38,053 nt of DNA, taken from IMG/VR virus record IMGVR_UViG_3300035204_000928, positions 1 to 38,053 of that record. One strand, written 5' to 3'. The notes under the pieces are model-generated. The model made no database searches. It was not told where the DNA came from and saw only the letters and a program-made list of their open reading frames with translations. Both the position numbers and the translations under genes were made by a program. Position 1 is the first letter of the stretch. Each line of letters starts with the position of its first letter. This DNA comes from a virus. Shown here in pieces: positions 10,763 through 22,102 of this stretch.

Positions 10763-11196
10763 TAAAAAGGTATATCCTCATCCATTGCAGGTTGTTTAGG
10801 GGTTGTATCGTAGTCTATATTTAAAGACTTACAAATCAACCTAAGCATCTGCTCTATGTTTTCTAACGAACTTGGTGATGCAGGTGGTGTAGATGATGGG
10901 GGGGCAGAGGAGGGCGGTGAGCTTAAATTGGAGATACTATTTAAGGTCTTCCCATCTACTTGAAAAACAGGAATGCTCTCCCCTGCGTTTAATACTTTAG
11001 TAATAGATACTGTTTGCCCTCTATTCACTTTAAGCCCCTCTAATAAGCTATTAAGACTCTCTGTGGCGTAAAAGACATCATCTTCATTGCAAGACCAAAG
11101 GTACTGCACACCATATTTACCACTTACCATCTTACCTTTATCATAAGATAATTTCACATCAATACTATCGTTCTCGCTAAATTTTATTATAGCCAT
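10762..11196 (-). CDS. ssb: Single-stranded DNA-binding protein
   Basis: 144 residues. It ends in PAMDEDIPF, the acidic tip by which SSB proteins recruit partners. Residues 1-88 are beta-rich as expected for an OB fold, with aromatic residues (YLW, F, Y) that could stack on DNA. A serine/proline linker (SSPPSSAPPSSTPPASPSS) lies at about 92-110, followed by an unusual helix (ENIEQMLRLICKSLNIDYD) before the tip. The N-terminal part is not closely similar to bacterial SSB, so this is a divergent phage type. It lies between the annealing protein and the initiator, overlapping the former by one base (TAATG). Confidence 0.75.
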   Translation of the reverse strand: MAIIKFSENDSIDVKLSYDKGKMVSGKYGVQYLWSCNEDDVFYATESLNSLLEGLKVNRGQTVSITKVLNAGESIPVFQVDGKTLNSISNLSSPPSSAPPSSTPPASPSSLENIEQMLRLICKSLNIDYDTTPKQPAMDEDIPF

Positions 11197-11801
11197 TATA
11201 CGTTCTCCTTTTGTTGTTTTTCATTGAAATTACTAACTTGTTTTTCCATATATTTTAATCCTGTGATGATTTGGTTTTCTGATACAAACCCTTTCCACCA
11301 ATCCTTAACCACCCCACGCTTACTATCATACATTTTAGATGCTAATAGTTCTTGAAACCTAGCTTTCTGTTCTTCGGTAGGGGTAAACGGTTTTTCATGA
11401 GGAACATCCTCTCCTGCATATATATAATGCCCAAGCCCCCACATAGCCATACACTTTGTAAAGCATCTCATTTTGGCGTTTGATATCTGAAGAGCATTAG
11501 GAGACACTATAGCGTTATGCCTATAATCCATAACAGGCAACCACATACTTCTTTTTAAGTCACCTATGGTGATAGTGCATTCTACCGAAGCTGTTGTGTC
11601 GGCATACTCTTTTATATCTAAACCCTTGTCTGAAACAGTAAAAGTATATTCTGCTGTTGGATAGTGTTCCATCATTATTCCCCAAGCCCAAGCCCAAGAC
11701 AAATAACTTAAAGTCATCTTCTTGCCTTCAACTGTTTCAATATGGTCATTAACATCCACCTTAGATAGGGTGTCCCACACTTCTTTATATGTTATTTTCA
11801 T
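11196..11801 (-). CDS. Sak3-like single-strand annealing protein (DUF1071)
   Basis: 201 residues. YLSWAWAW at 33-40 and MRCFTKCMAMWGLGHYIYAG at 111-130 are hallmark motifs of the DUF1071/Sak3 family, Rad52-related annealing proteins of phages. They pair single strands during recombination-dependent replication and often work with a neighbouring SSB, present here. It starts inside the stop of the XRE gene (TAATG) and ends in the start of ssb. Length fits the family. Confidence 0.85.
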   Translation of the reverse strand: MKITYKEVWDTLSKVDVNDHIETVEGKKMTLSYLSWAWAWGIMMEHYPTAEYTFTVSDKGLDIKEYADTTASVECTITIGDLKRSMWLPVMDYRHNAIVSPNALQISNAKMRCFTKCMAMWGLGHYIYAGEDVPHEKPFTPTEEQKARFQELLASKMYDSKRGVVKDWWKGFVSENQIITGLKYMEKQVSNFNEKQQKENV

Positions 11802-18409: not shown

Positions 18410-18514
18410 CTATTTTATGAAATGAACAAATGTTGATAAAAATGTGAATAAGAGGAGGAACTCTCCAATCATCCGACAGTAAATCTTGATGTTTTCTTTG
18501 GTCTTGAATTTCAT
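18410..18514 (-). CDS. Tiny membrane peptide, 34 aa
   Basis: MKFKTKENIKIYCRMIGEFL then LLFTFLSTFVHFIK: a basic start and one hydrophobic C-terminal helix. The ATG overlaps the preceding TGA (ATGA). Its stop is 9 bases before the next gene. A real gene by position and overlap, with no known role. Confidence 0.5.
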   Translation of the reverse strand: MKFKTKENIKIYCRMIGEFLLLFTFLSTFVHFIK

Positions 18515-18675
18515 TTGGTTCTCCTTTGTAAATATTCTCGGTAGCTCTTCATATCTCCTTTGATACGAAGTAAATTTAGCTCTCGCTCTTTCTTCTGCTC
18601 TCTAGATGGTCGGTGAGCAGGTCTATCTGCTCTAATTTTGCCCATCGTGGCTTTATCGGTCGAATAACATAACAT
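18511..18675 (-). CDS. Basic peptide, 54 aa, first gene of the leftward early operon
   Basis: MLCYSTDKATMGKIRADRPA, then HRPSREQKKERELNLLRIKG: strongly basic and helical. TAAGGAG lies six bases before the ATG at 18675; earlier in-frame starts (ATG at 18681, GTG at 18702) have no such spacing. It directly follows the structured leader. A nucleic-acid-binding role is plausible from charge. Confidence 0.55.
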   Translation of the reverse strand: MLCYSTDKATMGKIRADRPAHRPSREQKKERELNLLRIKGDMKSYREYLQRRTK

Positions 18676-18685
18676 AATCATCTCC

Positions 18686-18727
18686 TTAATTATTGAGGAC
18701 ACGAAGGGTAGCGAACCCTAGTTTCAT
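18686..18727 (-). CDS. Possible leader peptide, 13 aa
   Basis: ATG at 18727 (AGAGGA just upstream) encodes MKLGFATLRVLNN and ends in a TAA that overlaps the TAAGGAG ribosome site of the first early gene. A longer in-frame version would start at 18802 (38 residues). A related frame MKISLGTLPF is at 18890-18922. Proximity of stop to the next ribosome site suggests translational coupling or attenuation, but chance is possible. Confidence 0.3.
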   Translation of the reverse strand: MKLGFATLRVLNN

Positions 18728-18960
18728 ACATCCTCTGTTCGTGTCCAATCTACTAACAGAACATCTCCCGAAGGAGTTACCAACGCATAGCTCTGACACC
18801 ATGCTCCATCCCTAGTTAAAGATACCCAACTAGGTGTTCGTGGCTCTTGCTAAGTTCTGTCCACAGGATTGACGGAAGCTAGTGGGTGGTTAGAAGGGTA
18901 GTGTTCCCAACGAAATCTTCATACTCCTGTCTATTCTTCCTCGTAACACTCAAATCTATA
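18697..18960 (-). ncRNA. Candidate structured leader RNA of the early operon
   Basis: Minus-strand RNA can form a 9-bp stem GGACACGAA/TTCGTGTCC (18697-18746) with an inner AGGGT/ACCCT hairpin, a CTCC-UUCG-GGAG tetraloop hairpin (18765-18776), a CCTAGTT/AACTAGG hairpin (18811-18834), and long-range ACAGAAC/GTTCTGT pairing (18756-18762 with 18853-18859). The stretch is richer in GC than its surroundings and lies just upstream of the first early gene. Repeated elements (GAAGGGTAG) occur inside. Could be a 5' regulatory RNA or a stable small RNA. Confidence 0.45.
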
Positions 18961-18990
18961 GTATGGTGTCGTCGGGGGTATAGAGGGTAG
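18703..18990. repeat. Diverged GAAGGGTAG elements
   Basis: GAAGGGTAGCG begins at 18703, GAAGGGTAGTG at 18893, and GAGGGTAGCAC at 18983. Copies 1 and 2 continue to align over about 35 bases (to TTCATACATCCTCTG and TTCATACTCCTGTC). A fourth, related piece lies at about 18820-18840 (ACCCAACTAGGTGTTCG against ACCCTAG...TGTTCG). They look like old tandem duplications. Confidence 0.5.
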
Positions 18991-19046: not shown

Positions 19047-19180
19047 TGTTGGTTACACCTACCGTCGTAGTCACTCCAACACTATGTCAAAAATACGGTT
19101 CCTTTGACCGCTACCGTAAGTTACAACTGTAACATAATGGGATGCAACAACTATCTGTTACCTCCGTTACAAAAATAATT
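19047..19180. repeat. Clustered GTTAC/GTAAC motifs
   Basis: GTTAC or its complement occurs at about 19052 (GGTTACACC), 19119 and 19128 (GTTACAACTGTAAC, a hairpin), 19157 (TGTTACCTCC) and 19165 (CGTTAC). A pairing of this density suggests protein-binding sites such as operators or replication iterons. Confidence 0.4.
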
Positions 19181-19316: not shown

Positions 19317-19367
19317 CGTGAAAACTAGGATTATATGCAGGGATAGGGAGAAATAGGTTACATACTA

Positions 19368-19482
19368 CCCCTCTGATACCCCTCTGACACCCCTCCTACC
19401 ATCCCACCCCTGCTCCCCTCCCCCCTCACACCTCCCCTCTCACCCCCCCTCCCCCTACCCCTCCCCTCCCCCACCCCCCCCT
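19368..19482. other. Long C-rich polypyrimidine tract
   Basis: About 115 bases are almost all C and T on the + strand with runs up to C8; from 19413 to 19483 there is no G at all. The minus strand therefore carries many G3-G8 runs able to form quadruplexes. It stands in a very AT-rich genome between divergent early and late genes, just upstream of the terminase genes. A replication origin, fork barrier or packaging signal is possible; none is proven. Confidence 0.6.
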
Positions 19483-19564
19483 AGACTGTCGTCGGTGGCT
19501 ACGTCGAAACGAATCCGAGTTTTTTGAAAGATAACGTAATTCTGTGAGGGAAAACCCACAGCTA

Positions 19565-19594: not shown

Positions 19595-19604
19595 ACATTT
19601 TGCC

Positions 19605-19747
19605 CCAATTTTTAAAGATTGGTAGTGGGTATCGGGTGAGACCCCCACTCTCCTCCCCCCTCCCCTCCGGGGTGGGCTATGTATATATACATGTATATGT
19701 AAAATAGATGTAAAAGAATTTATTTTTATTTAATGTAACAGATGTAA
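19605..19747. other. Palindromes and ATGTAA repeats before the terminase genes
   Basis: CCAATTTTTAAAGATTGG (19605-19622) is palindromic apart from one pair. ATGTATATATACAT (19679-19692) and ATATACATGTATAT (19685-19698) are overlapping perfect palindromes. ATGTAA occurs four times (19697, 19708, 19733, 19742). Such a cluster beside terS could bind the small terminase (pac) or a late regulator. Confidence 0.45.
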
Positions 19748-19784: not shown

Positions 19785-20468
19785 ATGAGGGAATATACCG
19801 TCAAGGGTATATCGCATAAGGTGTACGAGCCTGATGAGGTGCCTATTGATATACAGCCGATTTCTAATTGGTCTGATGCTGATATAGGTGATTGGGTTGT
19901 AGCAGACGATGGTTGTGTAATTCAAGTGCTACGGAGGTACAATAATGTGATAGGTACGTGCACAGGAAGTTATATTTCCTCACGAGGCATGACAACGGAG
20001 AAGCAGCAGGATATATATTCTGTAGGTGGTAAGAGTTATGCTAGTCGCATGAGAGACAGGGTTAAGCCCACTGAGAAGGAGATATTATTTGCTTCTTACA
20101 TAGTTCGTGGTAATAAGCCTGTTGAAGCCTACTTGAAGGTTTTTAACACAAAGAATGAAACCACAGCTAAGAAGCGTGCAGCAATATTGGTTCAACAAAA
20201 GAGGATTCAAAATTTAATGAGAGAAGAATTAAAATTAGCATTTGCTAAACAGGCGATAGATTTAGACTATTTACTTGAGGCTGCAAAGAACGTAGTAGAT
20301 GGTGGAAAGAACGACTCTGATAGATTAAAAGCTCTCAGTATGTTATGGGATGCGTTTGGGGTTGTTGAGAAAAAGGCAGTTACTGAGGTCAAGGGTGTAT
20401 TCCAAGGGTTCTCAGATAACCAATTAACAGCAATAGATAGGGATTTACTGACAGATGGAGAAAAATAA
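19785..20468 (+). CDS. terS: Terminase small subunit
   Basis: 227 residues. The central part (YIVRGNKPVEAYLKVF, then KKRAAILVQQKRIQNLMREE) is the helix-turn-helix and coiled region typical of small terminases ('Fa-yiv-g-ka-eAy-kvf...a---a--Ll--~~i~--l'). An N-terminal domain of about 80 residues (GDWVVADDGCVIQVLRR) with beta strands is extra and seen in some phages. It recognises the packaging site and regulates the large subunit, encoded just downstream. The gene starts directly under a promoter with no ribosome site. Confidence 0.75.
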   Translation: MREYTVKGISHKVYEPDEVPIDIQPISNWSDADIGDWVVADDGCVIQVLRRYNNVIGTCTGSYISSRGMTTEKQQDIYSVGGKSYASRMRDRVKPTEKEILFASYIVRGNKPVEAYLKVFNTKNETTAKKRAAILVQQKRIQNLMREELKLAFAKQAIDLDYLLEAAKNVVDGGKNDSDRLKALSMLWDAFGVVEKKAVTEVKGVFQGFSDNQLTAIDRDLLTDGEK

Positions 20469-20530: not shown

Positions 20531-22102
20531 ATGGCGAATATAAACACAAAAAACGTAAGCAGAGCCGAAGAGGCACTAAAGCTAGCACAAAATGACCTTA
20601 TAGCATTTGGGAAGTTATTTCTTCCTGATGATTTCATGAGGTCTGAAACACCGTTTTTTCATTACGAAATTGCTGATACAATTTTTGAAAAAGATGACGA
20701 CGGAAAGTATTCTCATACCAACCTTGCTGTTATTATGCCAAGGGGACATGGGAAGACAGTTCTCACTAAAGCGGATATTGTTCATGCTTTTTGTTTTGCC
20801 AAGGAACCATTGTTCTATGGATGGGTATCAGCTACACAAAAGCTTGCAACAGGGAATATGGATTATGTAAAATATCACCTAGAGTTTAACGACACAATAA
20901 GATACTACTTTGGAAATTTAAAGGGTAGAAAATGGACAGAATCAGATATAGAGACATCAAATGAGTGCAAACTTCTTTCAAAATCTAACATCTCGGGTAT
21001 TAGAGGGGGTGCAAAACTTCATAAAAGATACGACCTTGTTGTCTTGGATGACTTTGAAGATGAGAACAATACCCTTACTGCTGAGTCAAGGGATAAAAAC
21101 TCAACTATGGTTACTGCAGTTGTTGCTCCTGCTTTGGAGCCTTATAATGGCAGGCTCCGTATTAATGGCACACCTGTGCATTACGATTCTTTTATCAACA
21201 ATCTTATTGTTAATTATGAGCGTGCGGAGGCTGATGGAGAAGATTTTTCGTGGAAAGTCAAACTCTACAAAGCAATAACAAGTAGTGGTTCGTGCCTGTG
21301 GGACTCTTGGTTTGGGCATGCTAAACTAGAAGAAAAGAAAAGATTCTACCAAGACTCAGGACAGCCTCAGAAGTTCTACCAAGAATATATGATGGAAGTG
21401 CAAAGTGCTGAAGATTCCATATTTAATATGAATCATATCAAATATCATGATGGAACCTACAAGTGGGATGAGGATAAAAAAATGTCTTTTATTGTAATTG
21501 ATGGGGAATATAAACCTGTAAATGTGTTTTGTGGTGTTGACCCTGCAACTGATTCCGACAGGAGGGATAGTGACTTTAGCGTTATTTTGTATATTGCTGT
21601 CGACATTGACAATAATATTTATGTTCTTAATTATATTCGTAAGAGAAGCCTACCTGTTCTTGGGATTCCGGGCGACAACAAAAAGGGTATTGTTGATATT
21701 ATTTTTGATAATAATCAGGTCTTTCACCCTAATCTACACATCATTGAAGAAACTACTATGTCGAGACCAATCTTCCAATCGTTAATATCAGAGATGAAAC
21801 GAAGGAATGACTTTACTGTTAAGTTTAGAGAAGAAAAGCCCGGTACTAGGATGTCTAAGAGAGATAGAATACAAGAAGTCTTATCTCAACGAATGAGTAT
21901 AGGTAGTGTGTTTATTACTAAAAACATGTACGATTTGCAGCATGAAATCATCACGTTTGGAAAACGTATGGGTCACGACGACACGATTGATGCATTAGCA
22001 TACGCAGTTAAGTATGCCGCCCCTCCTCAAGGACTTAAATCTAATAAAGATACAGGATATTATAAACCAAAACCAAAACCAAAGAGTTGGATAATAGCAT
22101 AA
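20531..22102 (+). CDS. terL: Terminase large subunit
   Basis: 523 residues. Walker A MPRGHGKT (69-76), Walker B DLVVLDDFED (168-177) and a C-terminal nuclease with GVDPATDSD (335-343) and a last acidic motif GHDDTIDAL (481-489). It pumps DNA into the head with ATP and cuts the concatemer. It directly follows the small subunit; AAAGGT precedes the ATG. All key residues are present. Length and motif order are normal. Confidence 0.93.
   Translation: MANINTKNVSRAEEALKLAQNDLIAFGKLFLPDDFMRSETPFFHYEIADTIFEKDDDGKYSHTNLAVIMPRGHGKTVLTKADIVHAFCFAKEPLFYGWVSATQKLATGNMDYVKYHLEFNDTIRYYFGNLKGRKWTESDIETSNECKLLSKSNISGIRGGAKLHKRYDLVVLDDFEDENNTLTAESRDKNSTMVTAVVAPALEPYNGRLRINGTPVHYDSFINNLIVNYERAEADGEDFSWKVKLYKAITSSGSCLWDSWFGHAKLEEKKRFYQDSGQPQKFYQEYMMEVQSAEDSIFNMNHIKYHDGTYKWDEDKKMSFIVIDGEYKPVNVFCGVDPATDSDRRDSDFSVILYIAVDIDNNIYVLNYIRKRSLPVLGIPGDNKKGIVDIIFDNNQVFHPNLHIIEETTMSRPIFQSLISEMKRRNDFTVKFREEKPGTRMSKRDRIQEVLSQRMSIGSVFITKNMYDLQHEIITFGKRMGHDDTIDALAYAVKYAAPPQGLKSNKDTGYYKPKPKPKSWIIA

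Follow-up and report, generated by a model that had tools for sequence, protein, structure and literature searches.

The DNA ahead of the early operon of an uncultured phage appears to encode a structured leader RNA that ends in half a tRNA. We analyzed a 38,053-nt stretch of an IMG/VR phage record (the window), in which this leader occupies about 400 nt of the minus strand, roughly from 19094 to 18697. With a probability of about 0.45, we read it as a family-specific structured RNA whose half-tRNA would act as an RNase P/RNase Z-type processing signal. The conserved structure and the position in the leader were established by comparison with relatives, and it is from these that we infer the function; as far as the collected sequences indicate, the RNA is confined to one subgroup of an uncultured phage family defined by its terminase. 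A sequence-only reading of part of this region had proposed tandem, decayed peptide-and-hairpin units forming either a translation-sensing attenuator or a stable small RNA. Of this proposal, the part that places a stable, structured RNA before the early operon receives strong support from covariation in relatives, and the leader looks real and functional but would not be a set of decayed mini-genes. Taken on its own sequence alone, the leader finding is weak and the logic of repeats and peptides fails. Folding of the whole leader as a single sequence gave a stability z of -0.26, which is not unusual against shuffles, and is uninformative.

Genomic setting of the leader

Late genes in the window lie on the plus strand, among them those for the terminase small subunit (terS, 19785-20468), the terminase large subunit (terL, 20531-22102), the portal and the major head protein. 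The early operon runs on the opposite strand from about 18675 down to 4870 and encodes an ArdC-type anti-restriction protein, a Sak-type annealing protein, a DnaD-like loader and a RusA resolvase. Some 1.1 kb separates terS from the first early gene and holds no convincing gene. For the product of that first gene (MLCYSTDKATMGKIRADRP..., 18511-18675, minus strand), PHROG and Pfam gave no match, and the protein as a query returned only a near-identical record; a similar CYSTD-type small protein is encoded early in the operon of relatives. Its Shine-Dalgarno sequence AAGGAG (18682-18687, minus strand), as read from the sequence, is located 9 nt past the tRNA-like domain (TLD) that closes the leader. 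No integrase was found among the larger ORFs tested, a subset of the ORFs in a record that may be incomplete.

Upstream of the leader, and both close to and upstream of terS, two short minus-strand elements (19595-19621 and about 19529-19545; CTTTAAAAATTG... and ATTACGTTAT..TTT) are common across the phage family; they may serve in packaging or as an origin. These conserved elements are flanked by long G-rich tracts (runs like GGGGGGGTGGGGGAGGGGAGGGG) at 19355-19480 and about 19640-19680 on the minus strand of a phage whose GC content is otherwise 37-45%, and the tracts could form G-quadruplexes.

Search for related leaders

Terminase searches returned hundreds of contigs belonging to one large phage family, and the regions upstream of terS, taken from 242 loci, yielded 156 distinct sequences. 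A second record (L002) carries a leader sequence identical to that of the window. When the window leader was compared with the first 80 terminase relatives by low-stringency blastn, it aligned with the identical record only; leaders used as blastn queries against 50,697 deposited phage records had no match, and alignment of the terminase against genome contigs produced no relative. Since no alignable leader was present among these relatives, homology was sought through structure. Enrichment of 8-12-mers picked up mostly the conserved elements near terS and not the leader. Rfam and ARAGORN reported nothing at the leader locus of the window, and Rfam searches at gathering and relaxed thresholds returned, beyond chance matches, only weak similarity to the T-arm of tmRNA and, in distant relatives, tRNA. 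A leader layout of hairpin H1, further hairpins and the TLD is common to relatives with the same family of terminase, and the leaders compared were about 230-525 nt long.

Structured RNAs of uncultured phages are poorly charted. The leader RNA matched no Rfam family in the window or the other loci tested (tRNA itself matches in distant relatives), and no description of it was found in the open-access literature, although an earlier description elsewhere is possible.

A covarying hairpin with a fixed loop

Hairpin H1 (18945-18970, minus strand) has the stem GACAC/GTGTT and the loop CATACTATAGATTTGA, which differs by 2 mismatches from the family loop, a near-invariant 16-nt sequence (CATACAATAGAWTTGA) that in several relatives sits inside complementary arms of unrelated sequence. 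Covariation in relatives had been named as a check on the earlier structural proposal, and the H1 stem does covary: in an alignment of 13 elements, 11 of the 12 pairs had changed on both sides, and stem covariation reached 0.787 against 0.207 (sd 0.036) in shuffles. Sliding the partner columns by 1-3 positions destroyed the covariation. A covariance model (R2) built without the window matched a single place in its 38 kb at E <= 5, namely 18945-18970 on the minus strand, with an E value of 7.1e-5. Confident matches over 64 loci all fell inside leaders, at one or two copies per leader, and whole relative records of up to 61 kb contained confident matches at one locus each, again the leader.

The loop was also scanned alone across all of IMG/VR with no stem requirement, which returned 87 stretches. 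Most of these have 0-2 bp around the loop, and 11 elements, including that of the window, have 4-8 bp; where the stem was at least 4 bp, the new loci, as checked, all carry the terS or terL of the family. An extra hairpin is inserted within the H1 loop in three relatives (L020, L026 and L093), and one leader (L003) has kept the TLD and lacks H1. Such a constant loop suggests a binding partner, either a protein or a second RNA, for the RNA in its released or nascent state.

A tRNA-like domain at the end of the leader

The TLD (18697-18746, minus strand) comprises an acceptor-like stem, a linker of 19 nt (18738-18720) and the T-arm AGGG-TTCGCTA-CCCT (18719-18705), with no anticodon arm and no encoded CCA. 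The acceptor-like stem pairs GGACACGA (18746-18739) with TCGTGTCC (18704-18697); the long closing stem reported earlier therefore exists, at 8 bp in our manual register and not at 9 bp. Like a tRNA, the element has an acceptor stem stacked on a T-arm with a TTCRANY-type loop, although the T-stem of the window is only 4 bp and its loop TTCGCTA is without the usual A58. The 19-nt linker stands where an anticodon arm would be expected, and neither ARAGORN nor Rfam called a tRNA in the window. The scan score of 12.5 was equaled in none of 1000 dinucleotide shuffles, the TLD was the only match of at least 12.0 on either strand of the 38 kb, and its local fold had a z of -2.93.

Leaders of the relatives end with a stem of 7-8 bp directly stacked on a stem of 4-6 bp that carries a 7-nt TTCR-type loop, and a linker of 11-35 nt replaces the D and anticodon arms; many members have a GG within this linker, like the tRNA elbow. 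We scanned 13 leaders for stacked minihelices (a 7-bp stem on one of 4 bp or more) whose 7-nt loop could have any sequence, and this loop-blind scan found 12 minihelices in 11 leaders, of which all but one (11/12) had a T-loop-type NTCR loop. Across 13 sequences 154 of 156 acceptor and T-stem cells were paired, whereas swapping whole strands among sequences left 95 paired on average and 120 at most; the observed percentage is biased upward by partial selection of the elements on pairing. At most positions of the stems at least three pair types occur (13 sequences, manual register), and this diversity, together with the independent loop test, is stronger evidence for the TLD than the pairing percentage. 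Because MAFFT misplaces the register of the 5' acceptor strand, pairs were counted by hand and no TLD covariance model was built.

The acceptor is followed by TCAATAA in the window and by CTAA, CTGA, CAAG or CAAT in relatives, none of which is an RCCA-type 3' motif. Individual relatives depart from the common form: the leader TLD of L007 is degenerate and was missed by the scan, that of L190 has an intermediate-looking linker with an extra 5-bp/7-nt arm, and the record of L026 ends before the TLD position. Two further, near-identical TLDs are present between early genes in L238/L007, one past the stop codon of the first early gene and the other between two later early genes, each then followed by a Shine-Dalgarno sequence. 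In L238 these half-tRNAs lie at 10768-10811 and 11212-11255 (AAATGTAG...GGGGGTTCRATTCCCCC.CTACATTT), with CTARTTTTTTTT between each and its Shine-Dalgarno sequence.

More distant relatives include some with tRNA genes: in 18 of 156, ARAGORN detected an early-region tRNA, always a tRNA-Met with a CAT anticodon. These genes (L125, L060, L139, L135, L037, L066 and others) resemble initiator tRNAs, often with an unpaired 1:72, G2-C71 and C3-G70; in L125 the anticodon stem carries GGG/CCC. Several of them adjoin conserved non-coding sequence (CGACCTGATATGGTGG...GGAGTAATGAACCAC).

Other leader elements

The CTCC-UUCG-GGAG hairpin noted earlier is present in the predicted fold at 18776-18765 on the minus strand. 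It occupies the position of the P4 hairpin of relatives, a stem-loop between GGCTCGAA and GTTGCC, and its presumed homology to P4 comes from position, not from sequence. Ahead of it, a hairpin GCAUGGU/GCUAUGC (18785-18804, minus strand) is predicted from the window sequence, and the central part of the window leader was matched to relatives by position only. When six leaders were aligned, the result suggested a long-range helix around the second H1 and the P4 hairpin before the TLD, with at least one compensatory change in 26 of the 53 predicted pairs among these few sequences. At the 5' end, the box ATTTTTGACATAG (19082-19094, minus strand) resembles the TTTTTGAMATA box of relatives, which was found 32-190 nt ahead of H1 in 12 of 14 leaders, window included, and is a possible promoter or transcript-start signal. 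Directly upstream of this box, at about 19095-19111 on the minus strand, lies a terminator-like hairpin GCGGTC..AACCGT followed by ATTTTTGACA; it is not obviously common to relatives.

Repeats and short reading frames

Three related repeats had been counted in the leader. Two exact copies of GAAGGGTAG are indeed present, at 18703 and 18893 on the plus strand, and match at 13 of 16 positions across 16 nt; the supposed third, AGAGGGTAG at 18982, has 2 mismatches. Of 1000 dinucleotide shuffles of these 305 bases, 142 (14%) held a repeated 9-mer, so the GAAGGGTAG repeat is close to chance. Both short frames exist on the minus strand, MKISLGTLPF (18890-18922, ATG at 18922) at chance level and MKLGFATLRVLNN (18686-18727, ATG at 18727) overlapping the linker, T-arm and 3' acceptor strand of the TLD. 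The second frame is not conserved: a MKLGFATLRV-like peptide was encoded by none of the ten relatives inspected, four of which have no ATG within the TLD. The region contains four ATG-initiated mini-ORFs of 8-30 aa where 2.0 are expected, which is near chance.

With frames near chance and not conserved, the notion of tandem decayed peptide-and-hairpin units found no support in the comparison; what relatives repeat is hairpin H1 instead. The covarying H1 was absent from the sequence-only reading, as was the TLD, which holds both the 3' repeat copy and the MKLGFATLRV frame. The leader illustrates clearly that what looks like repeated mini-ORFs in raw sequence may be accounted for by RNA structure after comparison with relatives.

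Proposed processing at the half-tRNA

According to the reading we favor, the half-tRNA would imitate the top half of a tRNA, host RNase P would cut at the 5' side of the TLD, and RNase Z or exonucleases could possibly cut at its 3' side. Such cutting would detach a stable leader RNA from the early mRNA and define where the 5' end of that mRNA lies. The extra TLDs between early genes in L238/L007 fit such punctuation by processing. In its anatomy, the TLD is an acceptor-T minihelix recognizable by RNase P, for which there is precedent: model RNAs consisting of an acceptor stem and T-stem-loop are correctly cleaved by bacterial RNase P RNA, and among phage RNAs, M3 and C4 are established substrates of RNase P (PMC11143913). 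Likewise, the long RNAs MALAT1 and MENbeta acquire their 3' ends when RNase P cleaves at a reduced tRNA-like element (PMC11693755).

Counting against processing are the lack of an encoded CCA/RCC after the acceptor, the 4-bp T-stem and the loop without A58, as well as the degenerate leader TLD of L007 and the L003 leader without H1. Bacterial RNase P favors an RCC/RCCA-type 3' motif. More tentatively than processing itself, we propose that the RNA represents a hitherto undescribed kind of phage leader. Half-tRNAs lacking an anticodon would punctuate the early transcript, at the end of the leader and in some phages between early genes too; at these marks host tRNA-processing enzymes would divide the early mRNA into separate units, setting free a stable non-coding RNA that carries the fixed-loop hairpin. 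If half-tRNAs are in fact cut by host RNase P/RNase Z, phages would use on early mRNA the tRNA punctuation that is known from mitochondria and MALAT1.

Alternative explanations

The main rival, in itself unlikely, is a cis antiterminator similar to HK022 put, in which the folded RNA would bind RNA polymerase and later terminators would be read through, with the TLD as a stable cap or accessory. By itself, the put RNA suppresses both pausing and termination within early phage genes (PMC9378689). By position the leader, too, is a structured RNA heading a long early operon, and it carries one or two copies of a fixed-loop hairpin. Antitermination of this kind, however, leaves unexplained both the T-loop/acceptor module and the extra TLD copies between early genes in L238, and the leader RNA is several times longer than put.

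Somewhat less likely again, the half-tRNA might recruit or sequester a tRNA-binding factor (EF-Tu, the CCA-adding enzyme, RNase P or a tRNA-directed defence) and in this way regulate the first early gene or shield the phage. The tight spacing of 9 nt from TLD to Shine-Dalgarno sequence agrees with this, as does the CAT-anticodon tRNA that distant relatives keep in the early region, but no CCA is encoded and the sequence indicates no specific partner.

Phages often carry tRNA 3' ends as attP, and the TLD could be a decayed tRNA or a tRNA-derived attP left by recombination, with no present function. The tRNA-Met(CAT) genes in the early region of distant relatives and the extra 5-bp/7-nt arm of L190, which resembles an intermediate, speak for such an origin. 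We nevertheless consider it improbable, because the acceptor strands and T-stem co-vary and compensatory change keeps them paired across diverged sequences; nor does the lack of an integrase among the larger ORFs tested favor it. Equally improbable is a large self-assembling RNA of the GOLLD/ROOL type whose tRNA partner has been reduced to half. GOLLD and ROOL are found near tRNAs in phages (PMC12286853), and the leader too combines a large structured phage RNA with a tRNA-like element, but neither family had an Rfam match in the window or relatives and the leader is only about 230-525 nt long. Least credible is the peptide-sensing attenuator with tandem mini-ORFs, since its two frames are preceded by AGGAG- or GAGG-like sequences but are near chance in number, encode a leader peptide that relatives do not conserve and lie, in the case of the second, inside the TLD, and a scan of the minus strand revealed no terminator-like hairpin between the leader and the first early gene.

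Comparison with known systems

The leader RNA resembles two known kinds of element, the structured phage leader RNA and the tRNA-like processing element. tmRNA also has a T-arm and acceptor without a normal anticodon arm, whereas the acceptor strands of the TLD are only about 11-35 nt plus the T-arm apart, which leaves no room for a tag reading frame. ARAGORN found no tmRNA, and the best Rfam score for tmRNA, seen in relatives L007 and L093 only, was 16.3 bits (cmscan, one L007 T-arm), far below the gathering score of 47; the tmRNA reading is disfavored. In HK022 put, too, a structured RNA stands at the head of phage early transcripts, but the leader is longer and holds a TLD, and put-like action is here a candidate. 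GOLLD and ROOL are also structured phage RNAs of large size that often have tRNA genes close by; compared with these the leader is shorter, has no Rfam similarity to them, heads an early operon and contains a half-tRNA instead of a tRNA. The M3 RNA and the C4 antisense RNA of P1/P7 are phage RNAs recognized by RNase P, as the leader would be; the leader differs from them in position and length and matches neither C4 (RF01695) nor any other Rfam family. In MALAT1/mascRNA and MENbeta/menRNA, as in the leader, a structured RNA ends in a reduced element of acceptor and T stem-loop. Those RNAs are eukaryotic and keep small D and anticodon-like stems, whereas the phage TLD has a linker only and is directly followed by a coding operon.
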